Source: Chaetoceros tenuissimus (lineage: Eukaryota; Bacillariophyta; Thalassiosirophyceae; Chaetocerotales; Chaetocerotaceae). Taken from it: a stretch of 64,000 bases of DNA. The notes beneath the pieces are model-generated. The model worked only from the letters and a program-made list of their open reading frames with translations, made no database searches and was not told where the DNA came from. The position numbers and the translations under genes are program-made. The stretch lies in contig BLLK01000069.1 in the NCBI GenBank assembly GCA_021927905.1, positions 2,728,001-2,792,000 of the forward strand. The letters run 5' to 3'. This document shows, one piece after another, positions 2,976 to 25,995 of this stretch; position 1 is the stretch's first letter; every line of letters begins with the position of its first letter.

Positions 2976-4334
2976 ATGAGAGTATCAAATAGCTGCTTAT
3001 TAGCTGTTCTTGTGACAACAGCAGTAGATGCATTCACTTCTACAAAATTTCAGAGCAAACACACGGCAATAAAGTCGACCGAAACTGATTTACCTGATTA
3101 TGGAAAGACCTCCGTAGATATTGATCAACATACATTGGACAATAAATGGCGTAGAAAAGATCTGTTTGGACAATCTCTGATTGACCATACTAAACTAGAA
3201 ATGGAACAAGATTCTGAATTCCAAAAGACAGCCCAGAAACTGAAAGAGATTGGTTTGAAGGGTATGTCCAAGGAAGAAAGAGCCAAGAGACGACGTGCAC
3301 TCGATACCCTCGGAGTCCCTACCTTCAATGAATTTCTATCTGAAAAGCTTGAAGGCGAAGATTCAGAGTCAAAATCAATGACTCTTCATCGGAAAGATAC
3401 AGAAGTGTTGCAAATAAATGTTGGGCTATTTTGTAATCAAGCATGTGGACATTGTCATGTAGAATCTTCTCCGATTAGGGATGAAACAATGTCTAAAGAA
3501 ATTGCAGCGCAGTGTCTTCAACTTCTGAAAGATACCCCAAGTATCACTATATTAGATATCACAGGTGGAGCTCCTGAAATGCAAGAACAATTTCGTTATA
3601 TTGTATCTATGGCAAGAGATATTAGGCCAGACATTGATATCATTGATAGATGCAACCTGACAGTTCTACAAGAGCCAGGACAGGAAGATCTCGTTGATTT
3701 CCTTGTTGCGAATAAAGTGCATATTGTTGCATCCTTGCCTTGCTATTCTGCAGATAATGTTGACAAGCAAAGAGGAAATGGTGTTTTTGATAGATCAATC
3801 AGTGCTTTACTTGCATTGAACGACGCAGGATATGGAAAAGAAGGTACCGGGTTGATTCTAGACTTGGTATATAATCCACTTGGTGCGTTTTTGCCTCCAT
3901 CTCAACAAGACTTGGAGGTGAAATATAAAGAAGTGCTTGCGGAAAATTTCGATATTGTTTTCAACAATTTGTTCACTATGACCAACATGCCTGTCAAGAG
4001 GTTTACAGACTTTTTGTACAGAAGAGATGAATTGAAAGACTACATGGATTTGCTTGTAAGAAATTTCAATCCTGCTACAGTTGATAATCTCATGTGTGGA
4101 AATACAGTCTCAGTTGGTTTTGATGGCAGTGTGTATGATTGCGACTTCAATCAACAGCTTGGATATGTGATTGGTTCTTCAGATATTGAAGATGAAGCAA
4201 ATGAAAAGAAGGGGAAGACAGTATTTGATATATCCTCACTGAATGATCTCAAGTGTGATCCAATTAAGAATGATAATCATTGCTTTGGATGCACAGCTGG
4301 AGCTGGGTCCAGCTGACAAGGAACCACAGCATAA
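2976..4334 (+). CDS. arsS: Plastid-type ArsS radical SAM protein, probable selenoprotein
   Basis: ArsS-family radical SAM enzymes act in arsenosugar biosynthesis. The protein starts with a signal peptide ending VDAF, the diatom plastid-entry junction. A CNQACGHC motif (about residue 155) supplies the three cysteines for the 4Fe-4S cluster. It is followed by the family segments DITGGAPE, NPLGAFLPP, NNLFTMTNMP and DCDFNQQLG. The C-terminus is NHCFGCTAGAGSS, then TGA at 4314-4316, then five further codons (QGTTA) and TAA at 4332-4334. From memory, family members end in a GSS-Cys/Sec-x-G motif and some are annotated selenoproteins. Reading TGA as Sec gives 452 residues and restores that ending. 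If TGA is a plain stop, the CDS ends at 4316 with 446 residues. Confidence 0.85.
4314..4316 (+). other. Probable selenocysteine TGA codon
   Basis: The TGA falls exactly where related ArsS proteins place Cys or Sec, directly after GAGSS. The next codons are CAA GGA ACC ACA GCA TAA, so a glycine follows at +2 as in the family ending. The assignment rests on family alignment from memory and on the adjacent hairpin. No clear SECIS element was found by eye. Confidence 0.7.
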
Positions 4335-4354
4335 ATGTAATGTTATGCTGTGGT
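4323..4354 (+). promoter_or_regulatory. Perfect 12-bp hairpin just after the TGA, possible recoding element
   Basis: The left arm ACCACAGCATAA (4323-4334) pairs without mismatch with TTATGCTGTGGT (4343-4354) around an 8-nt loop. The stem begins six bases after the TGA, and the TAA stop lies at the inner end of its left arm. A stem about six bases downstream of the UGA is how the selenocysteine redefinition element of selenoprotein N is arranged; bacterial SECIS stems also sit close behind the UGA. The pairing is seen directly. The recoding role is inferred. Confidence 0.6.
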
Positions 4355-4365
4355 CACTGCTACTC

Positions 4366-4416
4366 AAGGTTGATCTGTATATCATGAATACGAAGTAAGA
4401 TACAAGATTGGCAACC
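4366..4416 (+). promoter_or_regulatory. Weak SECIS-like stem in the arsS 3' UTR
   Basis: GGTTG at 4368-4372 can pair with CAACC at 4412-4416, and TGTAT at 4376-4380 with ATACA at 4400-4404. A TGAT (4371-4374) faces AGAT (4405-4408), which has the order of a eukaryotic SECIS quartet. The apical loop contains AA. The upper helix is short and has mismatches, so this is only a candidate. Confidence 0.2.
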
Positions 4417-4649
4417 AACTAACACAAGAATGACGAACATCCGACCCTGAATGACTTGTCTCTCGACGTGGTTCTTTTGTAGAGCCATCGGAGCCAATGA
4501 AAAGTGAGTCAAAGTAATAATTGCAATACTTGTTGTTCACGTTCTTCCATCTTCGATATAAGTTAAACTGTTATTTAAATATTGTTGACACTTTTACAAT
4601 CTAAATGGTGGCCAATATCATTTCTGTATCTCTATATAGGCTATTTTGA

Positions 4650-5006
4650 TTAGGCAGTTTCGGGTAATTCCAATCCTGCACGATGAGCAGCCAAACGCGA
4701 TAGTTCTTTTGGACTCAATTTGACCTCTGCTCCACCATCCAACTTGTGCAATTTTCTCCTTTCCCTTAAATCGTCCTTCAGTGTTATCATATCAAATGCC
4801 ATCTTTCTCAATGCATCTGCTTGGGCAGGTGGCGCGAATTGGTTTGCTCTATATTGACTCATTACTTGTTGATATAGAGGATGTTGGTTGAAAGCATTTA
4901 CTGCTGCTTCTGCCTTTGCCTTTGGCATCTCGAGTTTTGGAGCAGTGCGAATATGCCTCAGCAATCTGCGAAGTACATGTATCGGTGGAGTTTTTGCTGC
5001 AGTCAT
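4650..5006 (-). CDS. FMC1-like LYR-motif protein, probably mitochondrial
   Basis: A 118-residue protein starting at the ATG at 5004-5006. Its N-terminus has a LYR-type signature (VLRRLLRHIR), followed by AVNAFNQHPLYQQV, a helix with LKDDLRERRKLHKL and a C-terminal AGLELPE. The order and the ending resemble FMC1/C7orf55 proteins, small LYR proteins that help assemble mitochondrial ATP synthase. LYR proteins usually bind acyl carrier protein and act in the mitochondrial matrix. The length is close to the human protein (113 residues, from memory). An alternative is another LYR-family assembly factor. The upstream side faces a transposon inserted about 600 bp away. Confidence 0.6.
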   Translation of the reverse strand: MTAAKTPPIHVLRRLLRHIRTAPKLEMPKAKAEAAVNAFNQHPLYQQVMSQYRANQFAPPAQADALRKMAFDMITLKDDLRERRKLHKLDGGAEVKLSPKELSRLAAHRAGLELPETA

Positions 5007-5603
5007 TTTCTAGTTAGCCTTTCTACTATGTATGTTATACAAATAGTTCCTATTTCCCAATTCAATCAAACCAATTTCAATTGAATGTAACATAAACTGA
5101 AACTTCATCTGGAAAGGTAAAATCGAAAAATGAATGAAGTGTATTGAACAAAAGAAAAAAAGAGGGAAAGGGATAAGTTGGTTGCGGTGCAAAGTGGGGC
5201 CGCGCCTTTCACCCCTTTGATTGGCAAGCCAAAAAAACTGTTGTAGTGAGTAGTACGTAGATGCTTCCAAGAAGCCGGTCGTGTCTCCCGCAGCTACGCT
5301 GCTCACACGTCGAGGTTACTGCGTTCCGTACCTTCGATAGTATGTATTTTCAATCCCATTGATTCAAACCTTAAATGTGACAGAAAGCGAGGAATTGACC
5401 TGTCAATATGCATAATTTCGCTTGAATTTGTTTTAAATAGTTTCTGCGACTAGTCTGCAAAAAACGATAAATGTGTTTGTGCTCTTATATCTCCACACAC
5501 AAGAGCACAATTCCAAAACCCTATATTGTCCCAAGTTAATATAGATATGAAGATTTGTATTTTAAACTATCAATACAGCATATTCTGAAATGGAGTTGAT
5601 ATT
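5007..5603. other. Intergenic spacer up to the hAT element
   Basis: This is the upstream region of the FMC1-like gene, ending at the left transposon terminus. A GC-richer block at about 5190-5330 stands out from its AT-rich surroundings. No gene is recognised here. Confidence 0.5.
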
Positions 5604-5819: not shown

Positions 5820-8756
5820 ATGACGTTAGATGGTTGGGTGGTAAAGCAGGGAAAAGGAGGAAAGAGAAGCGGCAGCGCCGCTCTTCGTAAGAATGAAGAA
5901 GATGCTGATTCCTCATCTAGCACATGTTCTGTTTTCACAGGAACCAAACAAGTCACCATAACATCAACTAATACAAGTATTGAAGTGTATGATCCGACTG
6001 ATAGAGAAAGTGTTGATAAAATTCTTCTGTTAAAAGATTTGCAGTTGAAGGAACAATATGAGATGAAAAGAGCGATAACAAAAAGTATTGAATATCTTCA
6101 AGAAGAAGTGACTATCTTGCAACGGCTAAGTAAAGGGAAAAAGCTGAAGGTACCAACTGAAGCTAGTAAAGGAAATGAATCTGTTGAGATTGACCCATTT
6201 CAGAATTCGGAGTGTAATTCAGAAACATTGAAACTTATAAAATTTTACCGTAAGTTTCTGCTCACTTTCATTACACTTTGTATGCCCTTGACTTGTCCTC
6301 ATTCGAATTCTATTACAGATATTGATGATCACCACTTATTTGATAAAAAAATAACTACTAGAATTGATCAAAAGAAAAAAAGATGTCTTGAACCTGCAAG
6401 ATTTTGTAAATATCCGTGGGGGAAATATACACCAAGTCGGTATACAGATGATCCTGTCGGCGGTCTACTGCAATGCGGTTTATGCTCCAAGGCGTCTCAA
6501 ATGGATTTTGTCGACTTCATGCCTAGTACAGGTACTTTTTATAAAGGCTGTAAGAAATGGATTGAAGGCACCAATGATTGGAACAATTATGCTAGTGAAA
6601 ATTCTTGGGCAAATCATCATTCTTGTGAAGGTCATAAAGCTGCGGTTAGATTTCTCAATAGCAGAATGCAGAATGATATTCGCATTAATCTAGAGAGTGA
6701 GAGATCCGCCTCACTCAAGGCTTTTCATCAAGAACGCAACAGACATTACTTTGGTCTTGTCACGCGATCTGTCTTGCATTTGGCAAACATGGGCGATGCT
6801 ATCTACGGTGACACTACGAGAGAAGGTAAACTTAGGTCTACATTGAAACTTCTATCTCACCAAAGTCCATACATTGAGGATTTCTTATCTGTGCAAGGAA
6901 AGAATCAAACACTAATGACACTGACTCACAAGGATCATATCGATTTTATTCTAGAGCAAATTACAAAACAAATTATGAAGCGACAATATACAAAATTACG
7001 AGATTGCATTTTCGCGTGCTTAATAGCTGACGAGTGGTCGTGCCGATACTCAGCAAAAGAGTATGTATCTTTATCTGTACAATGCGTAATGAATAATCTT
7101 TCAACAGAAACTATCTTTCTTGGTTTTATTCCAATTAAGTCCACAACTGCTGAAGACGTGACAAGAGCGATCATCGATACATTACGAAAAATAGATCCGA
7201 CATTTGATATGAAAAAAGTTGTTGGTCAAACCTATGATGGTGCAGCAAACATGCAAGGTAAAAAAGGCGGCACACAAGCAAAAATTCGAGAGAGTCATTG
7301 CTTCTTTGCGTTACCCAACCATTGCTGGAACCACCAAATCCAAATAACTATCAAGAAATACACGAAAGGACATCGCTTGATTGAAAATGTGCTTTCATAT
7401 TGTGAAATCTTGGTGAAGCTGTACAAGTATTCCCCCAAACGTTCTGAAATGCTTGTAGATATAAAACTGGAGCTGCGAGATGATGTTCAAGATGGTCTTG
7501 AACCCAGCAAGTTTACCACGGCGGTCGGAAAATTACTGGGTCTTTGTGTGACTCGATGGACATGTAGGGCTACATCGCTCTTCAACTATTATCACGGCTA
7601 CTTTGCCGAATTCAAAGGTTTCGTACGGATTATGGTTACACGTGAACTAAAGTCCAAATTAAAAACAGACCAAAAAAATGAAATCACTGGAATGTTAATT
7701 AAGCTACAGGATTTTGAATTCTTCTATGGCTTAAGAGTTGCAGCTGAATTGTTTACCATAGTCGAAAAAACGACTGTGAAGATGCAAGAAGAAAATCTAA
7801 CTGCAAGTAAAGGTATTCAGGAAGTGAATAAACTCTTGGAGAATTTGGAGAAAGCTAAATCCGATGATGCATATGATAAAATATGGAAGGAAGTATCAGA
7901 TGATAGAGAAGCGATCAATAAAAAGATTTCCGAAGATAACGAGTGTCAGTCATATGGAATTGTCAATTGCATAAGTTCCCCTTCTAGAGCTGCTTCTCGG
8001 GTAGCAATGAGAGATGTAAATGAAGTGGCTCTTGATGAAGAAGAAGCTGCAAAGATATACTGGAAGGAATTCTACGTTGCAGCTTTTGAAGGAGTAGAAG
8101 AAGATTTAAAAAGACGACTTGAAAATGACATGCTGAAGACGCTGGTTGAAATGGAAGTAATTTTAGTGCAGTTGATAAGTGCACCGGAGAAGGAATTTGA
8201 AATTGAAAATATTGTAAAAAACTACGGAACTGGTTCTGGTAAAGAAGGAGCCCCTTTTGGAGAAGAGTTGACTAAAGCAGCAATATTGCGGGAGATGGAG
8301 ATTGTACGTGAAGAATGGAGGAAACTGCGCAGTGATTCTGAGGAATGGAAGAAACGCAGACCGGAATGTCAAGACCCACTATGCGCAGATGATGTTATAG
8401 ATATGATGAAGGATTCATTTAAGTCTTCAAAAACATTGAGTGATTGGAAAGGAGATGCTCCTATAATTATGAAAATGCTTGCTATTATGGCTACTATCGC
8501 AGCCACATCCGCTTTCGCAGAACGCACATTTTCATTAGCACGAAGATTGAAATCTTATCTTAGATCGCAAATGCTTAATGATACATTCTACAGATTAGGT
8601 ATTATTGCATGGTATGATGAAAAAGAAATAAATTCCATTGTAGATTTTGTCCGGATTGGAAATGATTTTATCACAAATGCACATAGAAAAGGCATTTACG
8701 GGTTGAATTTCAAAGAGGAAGACTTTATTCCAAAGCAATTTGATAAATCAAAATAA
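5820..8756 (+). CDS. hAT transposase (ZMYM1/DUF4371-type)
   Basis: A 978-residue protein that cuts and pastes the surrounding element. A zinc-finger region (about 219-275: CGLC ... HHSCEGH) resembles the TTF/BED-type DNA-binding domain. The catalytic core has ADEW (D404) and YDGAANM (D473). The C-terminal dimerisation region has AFAERTFSLARRLKSYLRSQ, which supplies the catalytic glutamate (about residue 910). The order and length fit the DUF4371/ZMYM1-like branch. A GTAAGT...ATTACAG segment at 6250-6318 is 69 nt with no stop, so it may be an intron; removing it joins KFY to HIDDHH. The frame is intact, so the enzyme may still be active. Confidence 0.9.
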   Translation: MTLDGWVVKQGKGGKRSGSAALRKNEEDADSSSSTCSVFTGTKQVTITSTNTSIEVYDPTDRESVDKILLLKDLQLKEQYEMKRAITKSIEYLQEEVTILQRLSKGKKLKVPTEASKGNESVEIDPFQNSECNSETLKLIKFYRKFLLTFITLCMPLTCPHSNSITDIDDHHLFDKKITTRIDQKKKRCLEPARFCKYPWGKYTPSRYTDDPVGGLLQCGLCSKASQMDFVDFMPSTGTFYKGCKKWIEGTNDWNNYASENSWANHHSCEGHKAAVRFLNSRMQNDIRINLESERSASLKAFHQERNRHYFGLVTRSVLHLANMGDAIYGDTTREGKLRSTLKLLSHQSPYIEDFLSVQGKNQTLMTLTHKDHIDFILEQITKQIMKRQYTKLRDCIFACLIADEWSCRYSAKEYVSLSVQCVMNNLSTETIFLGFIPIKSTTAEDVTRAIIDTLRKIDPTFDMKKVVGQTYDGAANMQGKKGGTQAKIRESHCFFALPNHCWNHQIQITIKKYTKGHRLIENVLSYCEILVKLYKYSPKRSEMLVDIKLELRDDVQDGLEPSKFTTAVGKLLGLCVTRWTCRATSLFNYYHGYFAEFKGFVRIMVTRELKSKLKTDQKNEITGMLIKLQDFEFFYGLRVAAELFTIVEKTTVKMQEENLTASKGIQEVNKLLENLEKAKSDDAYDKIWKEVSDDREAINKKISEDNECQSYGIVNCISSPSRAASRVAMRDVNEVALDEEEAAKIYWKEFYVAAFEGVEEDLKRRLENDMLKTLVEMEVILVQLISAPEKEFEIENIVKNYGTGSGKEGAPFGEELTKAAILREMEIVREEWRKLRSDSEEWKKRRPECQDPLCADDVIDMMKDSFKSSKTLSDWKGDAPIIMKMLAIMATIAATSAFAERTFSLARRLKSYLRSQMLNDTFYRLGIIAWYDEKEINSIVDFVRIGNDFITNAHRKGIYGLNFKEEDFIPKQFDKSK

Positions 8757-17939: not shown

Positions 17940-18480
17940 TGTTATAAATACCTAGATATTGCTTCAAATTGGATATTCAACGTTATGGCATGTTCAAGTG
18001 GGGAAAACATTCAATGTCATCATAAGTATCGCCAGTTTTTAGAATTCTTGATTGTTGGATATGTATGCGTTGATGACGTCATAGATTTCAGGTTTTTGCG
18101 CGCAAATTGACTCTGCATAAATTAGTAGAGAAAGTGAAAGTCATTGTTTTAATAATAATACATAGGTAAATGTAATCACGAAAATAGAGCAAGACACAGC
18201 ACTAAGTAATATGAATAATCATAAGGAATAATATTCGGGGTAATGTTTATAGTTTTGTCAAAGTGATATTATACATGTACAATACAAGAAAAAATGAAAA
18301 AACATACAGGCAAAGTAAAAATGATCCACTAAGCTATTTTCAATTTATTACTCTTTCATTAACCAGTGTTATTCAAGTTCAACGCAATCATACTCTTTCA
18401 GCCTTTAGTATGCACGGCATTTCGCCAATTTTGTGCTGGACATGTGATAATCTATGCAAATCAATGAAGAGAGAATTTTT
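17940..18480. other. Upstream region with a CRE palindrome
   Basis: This spacer holds TGACGTCA at 18074-18081, about 140 bp before the ATG of the plastid membrane protein. This octamer is the cAMP-response element; related motifs control CO2-responsive genes in diatoms. The remainder is AT-rich, and I see no other gene. Confidence 0.45.
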
Positions 18481-18567
18481 CCAATCTCAGAAATACCACT
18501 GCAAATTATCAACCCGTGTTCTTTCAGACAGGGATAACTGTTAAAAATGCAATTCATCATTGATTGG
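18481..18567 (-). ncRNA. C/D box snoRNA, copy 1, snR38-like
   Basis: Read on the reverse strand this 87-nt segment has every C/D box part in order. A terminal stem CCAATC/GATTGG is perfect over 6 bp. Box C is ATGATGA (18554-18560), box D' CTGA (18524-18527), box C' TGATAA (18506-18511) and box D CTGA (18487-18490). The D' guide CAGTTATCCCTG (18529-18540) is complementary to CAGGGAUAACUG, a near-universal LSU rRNA segment at the peptidyl-transferase centre. By the box D+5 rule it would 2'-O-methylate the middle G of GGG, equivalent to yeast Gm2815, the target of snR38. It is not a protein exon, and a second copy lies 167 bp away. Confidence 0.85.
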
Positions 18568-18732
18568 AATAAACTTTCTCTCTTCTCAAAATCTATGAAG
18601 ACAGTTGATTACAAACAAATGAATAATACAAAAATGTTTGAATGAAATCAATCTCAGAAATACCACTGCAAATTATCAACCCGTGTTCTTTCAGACAGGG
18701 ATAACTGTTAAAAATGCAATTCATCATTGATT
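18482..18732. repeat. 84-bp perfect direct repeat (snoRNA duplication)
   Basis: 18482-18565 and 18649-18732 are identical, with 83 bp of unrelated sequence between them. Identity stops at the snoRNA ends, as expected if selection or recent duplication acted on the RNA unit. Confidence 0.95.
18649..18732 (-). ncRNA. C/D box snoRNA, copy 2, snR38-like
   Basis: An 84-bp exact copy of the core of the neighbouring snoRNA, with box C at 18721-18727, box D' 18691-18694, box C' 18673-18678 and box D 18654-18657. The guide is identical (18696-18707). Its terminal stem is weaker: only AATC/GATT is retained because the flanks differ. Transcription on the reverse strand would make this the upstream copy of a dicistronic or intron-borne precursor leading towards 17.9 kb. 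Confidence 0.8.
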
Positions 18733-19430
18733 CTTTTCATTCACTATTAAAAAAACTCAACCGATTGAAAATACAAGAAACAGCATCCAATATCGTTTGC
18801 ATGATGACCTCAAAACGGTGATGATTGCAAAAGATACGGAAACTGGTTTGAACACAAAATTGACACTATGCAACTAAGCAAGATGACTTGCTTCAACCTG
18901 GGCGTCGCTATGAGCCCTAAAACACACAAGTTGCTGACTCTACTTCATTAAACATGGAATGATGCATTCACGCATTTACAGCATAGACTATGGAGTAATG
19001 AAGTCCTATGGATAAGACTAGTGAATGAAGGATGTGATTTGTGGCTGTGGTTGTGATCAAGTTCGTGTTATCTATCCCCGATGGCTAAGGAGAACAATGA
19101 TGACAAAGACAACTAGAATTTTGTTCAAGAGGAAAGAACAATTTTTGAGAAAGGAACATTGTTCAACAGCTTGTGAGAGTTAATAGGCCGTACTTTCATT
19201 ATACATTATCTATATCATGCAATGAAAGGATGACGTTTCAAATGAGCAGTTTCAATGCTTTTCACCAGAGTTTCGAGGGTCTCTGTGGGACCAGAAATAA
19301 TGAGACAAGTGATGCTACTCCAAGGAGTGTCGCTGAAAAAGATACTCTTCATATGTATCGTCTAGCTTTGCAAAATAGAAAGAAGTGGAGCAAGTCGATG
19401 CAAAATCAAGAAGCTTCAAATTATGGAGAG
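18733..19430. other. Spacer upstream of the integrase-repeat-like protein
   Basis: This 698-bp spacer contains several TGATGA strings (18801, 18818, 19096) with no matching box D and stem, so I call no further snoRNA. An open frame extends upstream from the chosen start to 19173 without recognisable content. Confidence 0.4.
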
Positions 19431-25697: not shown

Positions 25698-25995
25698 TTA
25701 TAGTCGCGTGAAGTAACAATCAATTAGATACAATCAACAATCATTCAATAATGAAATATATAGTGTTTTTGACACAAAAAGCAAAAATGGCAAAAAAAGG
25801 AAGGAAAAATGAGCCAGAAAAAAAGAAACATTTTTTCTGGCTAGGTGATGTGCCATACAATAGTCGTGTGTTGACTGGTCTTGAAATATTCAAAGTCTAA
25901 ACTTAGGTTTAAAATTTCTTCAATTTTTCGACTCGGGGAATAAAGAGTTGACTCATTTTGCATTTGAAGCAGCATGGATAGTTCTCATATTCATC
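25698..25995. other. Spacer between ALG2 and the transporter
   Basis: About 300 bp of AT-rich sequence. An imperfect inverted pair (GCCAGAAAAAAAG at about 25811 and TTTTTTTCTGGCT at about 25832) forms a hairpin. I see no gene. Confidence 0.4.

Follow-up and report, generated by a model that had tools for sequence, protein, structure and literature searches.

Analysis of a 64,000-nucleotide stretch of the Chaetoceros tenuissimus genome (the window, C54:2728001-2792000 in the assembly) revealed an ArsS gene in which an in-frame TGA at 4314-4316 is very likely decoded as selenocysteine (Sec). Decoding as Sec is supported because the codon lies in a column held by cysteine in relatives, the residues downstream of it are conserved, the genome contains a Sec gene set and the gene is followed by a SECIS-like element. 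The frame itself, these sequence features and a hairpin next to the TGA were observed directly, and the actual incorporation of Sec into ArsS is inferred. The features are as follows.

2976 to 4334, plus strand: arsS coding sequence with predicted Sec447, 452 residues, stop TAA at 4332-4334, radical SAM domain and DUF3641 (PF12345, PF04055).
4314 to 4316, plus strand: TGA, predicted selenocysteine 447, at a column with cysteine in 78 of 80 bacterial loci and in 7 of 120 listed homologs.
4317 to 4331, plus strand: QGTTA codons 3' of the predicted Sec codon, with QGTTA or QGATA in the homologs P0034, P0035, P0058, P0067, P0095 and P0102, QGTTT in P0054 and QGTTA in P0093.
4323 to 4354, plus strand: perfect 12-bp hairpin with an 8-nt loop, 6 nt after the TGA, a candidate redefinition element, from the fold and from stem counts in window and genome.
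4332 to 4334, plus strand: TAA, the predicted true stop, within the 5' arm of the hairpin, by reading of the sequence.
About 4443 to 4510, plus strand: SECIS-like element with helix I, AATGAC at 4450-4455, helix II, an apical mini-helix and TGA at 4498-4500.

The frame begins at ATG 2976 and is open through 4313, where the tail CFGCTAGAGSS meets the TGA; the codons CAA GGA ACC ACA GCA (QGTTA) then lead to the TAA. The read-through C-terminus is ...NDNHCFGCTAGAGSS-U-QGTTA, with Sec as the sixth residue from the end. The original prediction had described a TGA in frame after GAGSS, then QGTTA and a stop, as well as a mismatch-free 12-bp stem with an 8-nt loop that begins six bases past the TGA and encloses the TAA, and both descriptions proved correct to the base. 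With the TGA translated as a residue, the protein scored 412.6 bits against TIGR04167, '(seleno)protein ArsS' (curated cut-off 300), and Pfam domains Radical_SAM and DUF3641 were identified. The radical SAM CxxxCxxC motif and the C-terminal cysteines are present, and C153, C157, C160, C374, C389, C436 and C439 were invariant in an alignment of 45 sequences (the window ArsS, 15 of 120 homologs and 29 of 80 bacterial loci). The locus is the sole match to its own protein in the 41-Mb, 68-contig genome, and the best named homologs are from Cylindrotheca, Attheya, Seminavis, Nitzschia, Ditylum, Eucampia, Epithemia and Triparma. The predicted structure has a mean pLDDT of 81.5, with values below 50 for residues 449-452 and a mean of 61 for the block 441-450; Sec447, eight residues past C439, lies in this poorly modelled tail. 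Radical SAM enzymes, e.g. SkfB, EpeE and MoaA, were the best PDB structure matches of the model, and a sequence search of the PDB returned YydG alone (E 6e-4).

Elsewhere in the window, two snoR38-like C/D box snoRNA copies scored above the gathering score on the minus strand at 18480-18735. A 978-residue frame at 5820-8756 matched DUF4371 and the hAT dimerisation domain just below the Pfam gathering scores and is probably a hAT-type transposase.

The search of the genome for Sec machinery covered tRNA-Sec, SepSecS and eEFSec. Five tRNA-Sec matches were above the Rfam cut-off and ARAGORN called three tRNA-SeC(tca); SepSecS is present, as is eEFSec, identified by its domain III (eEFSec-specific PF21208, E 7e-33). 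In-frame TGA codons were found in seven other genes, namely a SELENOT-type Rdx gene (L011), a SELENOM-type gene (L019), three GPX genes (L014, L015, L016) and two MsrA genes (L030, L031), at positions that we take to be the known Sec sites of these families. An additional MsrA match with one TGA (L029) was excluded from these controls because no Sec site was visible in frame.

Several observations on related genes were made in passing. A tRNA-Sec-like gene of 69.6 bits, above the Rfam cut-off (L005:1501-1586; G000:C34:1126986-1127071), lies 2.8 kb from the L003 tRNA-Sec; its anticodon loop is CCTTAAA, with TTA as the anticodon by our reading, so that it would decode UAA, and it was uncalled by ARAGORN. 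Another tRNA-Sec-like sequence (L006:1501-1598; G000:C54:1808110-1808207; 63 bits), also uncalled by ARAGORN, carries a 12-base insert directly after the anticodon that resembles a small intron or a pseudogene. A methyltransferase-like match at G000:C46:319556-319825 contains one in-frame TGA and may be a selenoprotein or contain an intron.

The SECIS-like element starts about 110 nt past the TAA of ArsS. The minimum free energy fold of 4436-4515 consists of helix I, an internal loop with AUGAC opposite UGAAA, helix II and an apical mini-helix, and its stability is ordinary (z -0.95, 33 of 200 shuffles equally stable). Only a relaxed scan revealed a shared pattern, with AATGAC, helix II and a closing GA common to the SELENOT gene, the GPX genes and ArsS; the AATGAC element ranked top in SELENOM and both MsrA genes and second in L015, L016 and ArsS, and in ArsS the hairpin that outranks it lies at 4854-4941. 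We defined a descriptor as an AATGAC-started hairpin closed by GA, at -7.5 kcal/mol or lower and within 480 nt of the stop, the energy threshold being the level of the weakest control. AATGAC had first been seen in the SELENOT and GPX genes and ArsS themselves, and only SELENOM and the two MsrA genes were fetched later. All seven other Sec genes passed the descriptor (-18.8, -14.5, -7.6, -9.4, -15.1, -14.1 and -9.0 kcal/mol). It was passed by none of 22 controls without an in-frame TGA (best -3.5; AATGAC in only four of the 22), these being Cys-type relatives and unrelated genes from the same genome with the stop taken as the next one in frame, which introns may shift in some. The ArsS element reaches -16.0 kcal/mol, a value attained by 2 of 2000 shuffles of the 400-nt 3' region (-7.5 by 21 of 2000). 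Among 318 window tiles covering both strands, seven pass -7.5 and the ArsS tile alone passes -14, and the ArsS AATGAC site is the best of 56 in the window.

The SECIS search proposed in the original prediction had a divided outcome: our own AATGAC descriptor located the element at about 4443-4510, but strict AA/CC scans 3' of ArsS gave no convincing element and Rfam gave no SECIS, either at the gathering score or over 4200-5300 at E up to 10. The SECIS known from eukaryotic selenoproteins is found here by our own descriptor only, and neither in the strict AA/CC form nor as Rfam SECIS_1. Run on four of the other seven loci, whose status as selenoprotein genes is hardly in doubt, the strict scan recovered the element of L016 and missed those of L011, L014 and L015; Rfam SECIS_1 (RF00031) had no match in the whole genome and hence missed the other seven Sec genes too. 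The ArsS element has CG instead of AA at the apical position, and by our reading a clear apical AA or CC is also missing in four of the seven control elements (L011, L015, L030, L031). MAFFT left the arms of the elements unaligned. A weak TTGA-started match of the strict scan at 5217-5272 lies beyond the next frame and was rejected. On the proposed mechanism, the UGA at 4314 would be decoded by tRNA-Sec and eEFSec under the direction of the 3' UTR SECIS at about 4443-4510, QGTTA would be added after Sec, and translation would end at the UAA.

The hairpin next to the TGA comprises a 5' stem ACCACAGCATAA (4323-4334), a loop ATGTAATG (4335-4342) and a 3' stem TTATGCTGTGGT (4343-4354). All 12 of its 12 pairs are Watson-Crick, the six-base spacer from the TGA is CAAGGA, and the TAA supplies the 5' bases of the three pairs next to the loop. 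Folding of 4317-4360, suggested beforehand as a check, gave -20.6 kcal/mol with z = -6.24, and none of 200 dinucleotide shuffles was as stable. In the 45 nt after the TGA, z is -5.26 for ArsS and ranges from -2.66 (SELENOT) to +2.07 for the seven control Sec codons, computed with the same script. The 41-Mb assembly contains just one copy of the hairpin, which therefore does not belong to a detected repeat. Matches to mir-4703 and the CPEB3 ribozyme over the hairpin were far below the gathering score and were rejected as chance.

The geometry fits that of the redefinition stem of selenoprotein N, and the hairpin would probably pause the ribosome at the UGA and favour Sec insertion over release, as the SEPN1 stem does. 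We give the candidate redefinition role through ribosome pausing about an even chance. Somewhat short of an even chance is the explanation that the SECIS suffices for Sec insertion, the hairpin being an inverted repeat that arose by chance or having a different 3' UTR purpose, e.g. mRNA stability. Perfect stems of at least 12 bp do occur (loop 3-15), once in roughly every 40-50 kb whether or not the ArsS hairpin is counted: two were counted in the 64-kb window and none in three mononucleotide shuffles, and 135 kb of other loci from the same genome, overlaps counted, contained them at three places (L007, a palindromic stretch of L032, and L118). A hairpin comparable to that of ArsS follows none of the seven control Sec codons, two of which have moderate ones. 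Against chance stands the position of the stem exactly six bases past the TGA, since a stem that begins no more than about 10 bases from a given TGA is expected in only about 1 in 4000-5000 cases, a figure calculated after the hairpin had been seen, and the 3' arm perfectly complements protein-coding bases plus the stop. The window's second perfect 12-bp stem, at 25812-25842, is A/T-rich. The moderate hairpins in the 45 nt after a Sec TGA are those of SELENOT (L011, z -2.66) and one MsrA gene (L031, z -2.23).

The stop inside the stem raises the possibility that a single structure combines a delay of the ribosome at the UGA with a place at the termination site. That diatoms possess a dedicated redefinition hairpin with the stop locked in its stem, by which a single structure controls both Sec insertion at the C-terminus and termination six codons further on, is a tentative proposal that we consider unlikely on present evidence. 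If true, the stop-containing hairpin would couple recoding with termination and would extend redefinition elements beyond animals, outside which we know of none. The diatom gene is offered as a case for testing control of Sec insertion by a UGA-adjacent hairpin outside animals.

Comparison of the TGA column between relatives argues for Sec in place of cysteine. Of the 80 bacterial loci, which are the best of at least 587 matches in prokaryote genomes, 78 have a Cys codon here and the other two (L041, L109) have an unreadable motif; the context is mostly GSSCGG and in some GSSCQG. The query used for this ranking carried Cys at the TGA column, which may slightly favour Cys forms. Among the best 120 of 7998 homologs, 107 end exactly at GSS, seven have GSSC-x-G, one has GSSW-x-G and five are without the motif. 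The Cys-form homologs continue with QGTTA at the C-terminus (P0035, P0102), QGTTA plus one residue (P0058), QGATA (P0034, P0067, P0095) or QGTTTS (P0054), and P0093 has Trp at the column followed by QGTTA. Given the QGTTA and QGATA tails of the Cys forms, the codons after the TGA are therefore taken as conserved protein sequence. For the Trp of P0093, the likeliest source is this same TGA, translated by an alternative genetic code. Both the cysteine expected at the TGA column of homologs and the proposed Sec at the ArsS C-terminus are borne out by these comparisons, the latter together with the Sec machinery and the SECIS-like element. Viral contigs scanned for ArsS relatives yielded one locus (L116), 50% identical across part of the protein; ArsS DNA of close relatives was found neither among the viral contigs nor among the prokaryote genomes scanned.

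That the TGA is a real stop, with ArsS ending at GSS and the cysteine lost in this lineage, is highly improbable. The GSS endings of 107 among the best 120 of 7998 homologs would favour it, and such endings had been named in advance as a sign against Sec. They do occur, but database translations would halt at a TGA, and the homologs that continue do so with Cys-Q-G (seven) or Trp-Q-G (one). Judged from the translations, the 107 endings are best read as gene callers halting at TGA, which suggests that a eukaryotic enzyme of arsenic metabolism has seemingly been cut short in these entries, without the Cys/Sec tail that every readable bacterial relative carries. A loss of the cysteine also conflicts with its presence in all 78 readable bacterial relatives, with the Cys-QG of the seven close homologs and the five post-TGA residues kept here, and with the presence of the SECIS-like element and the Sec gene set. 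Least probable of all is hairpin-stimulated readthrough in which a near-cognate tRNA inserts Trp, Arg or Cys in place of the stop: a UGA-C context and a nearby downstream hairpin are known stimulators, both are resembled here (the hairpin at 6 nt) and P0093 has Trp at the column, but an alternative-code reading of TGA by the gene caller is simpler for P0093, and readthrough is opposed by the SECIS-like element and by the Cys that the column otherwise holds, the amino acid whose place Sec takes.

With the TGA read as Sec, the gene product would be ArsS, the radical SAM enzyme that acts in arsenosugar synthesis, carrying Sec near its C-terminus. In the synthesis of oxo-arsenosugars, ArsS attaches a deoxyadenosyl group to arsenic, a function that is predicted for the window gene; arsenic adenosylation catalysed by a radical SAM enzyme is described, with citation of an ArsS study, in a portion of PMC12159101. 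The selenolate may take part in arsenic binding or reduction, or in redox chemistry, near the C-terminal Cys-rich site. An ArsM-like methyltransferase gene (L119) elsewhere in the genome has a Cys-rich tail and scored 194 bits against NF008823, below the cut-off of 263. With Sec in ArsS, arsenosugar synthesis by phytoplankton would be linked to the supply of selenium.

Sec in ArsS is already implied by the TIGR04167 family name; an algal Sec-ArsS named as such was not found in the open-licence literature searched. Algal Sec families called 'FeSoxR' or 'Fe-S oxidoreductase' appear in excerpts of PMC7539508, an algal Sec Fe-S oxidoreductase in the Fig. 6 legend of PMC5917014 and in a section of PMC11092101, and a bacterial Fe-S oxidoreductase selenoprotein is listed in part of PMC5029168. 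A passage of PMC2375036 gives a Thalassiosira selenoprotein list without an Fe-S oxidoreductase, and 'Fe-S' and 'radical' are absent from the text of that paper; PMC6627142 gave no match for the four terms searched. Compared by name and description, the window ArsS is probably the algal selenoprotein catalogued as 'Fe-S oxidoreductase' or FeSoxR. The likeness lies in these proteins being Sec-containing and predicted in algae, and UniRef applies the name 'Fe-S oxidoreductase' to the ArsS homologs P0074 and P0103.

Comparison with the known systems revealed both shared and distinct features. The window gene resembles TIGR04167 rSAM_SeCys (arsenosugar biosynthesis radical SAM (seleno)protein ArsS) in passing the cut-off, in the CxxxCxxC motif and in the C-terminal GSS-[C/U]-x-G column; unlike that family, it is eukaryotic, has about 135 residues ahead of the start of the family model, and is accompanied by a 3' UTR SECIS-like element and a hairpin overlapping the stop. 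Eukaryotic SECIS form 2 consists of helix I, an ATGA/GA core, helix II and an apical mini-helix, all of which the ArsS element shares, whereas its apical 5' loop has neither AA nor CC. The SEPN1 redefinition stem has a six-base spacer, and the ArsS hairpin is likewise a stem-loop shortly 3' of a predicted Sec UGA at a six-base spacing. The SEPN1 element, immediately 3' of its UGA, regulates Sec synthesis according to an excerpt of PMC3541580; unlike it, the ArsS stem is perfect, contains the stop codon and extends into the 3' UTR.
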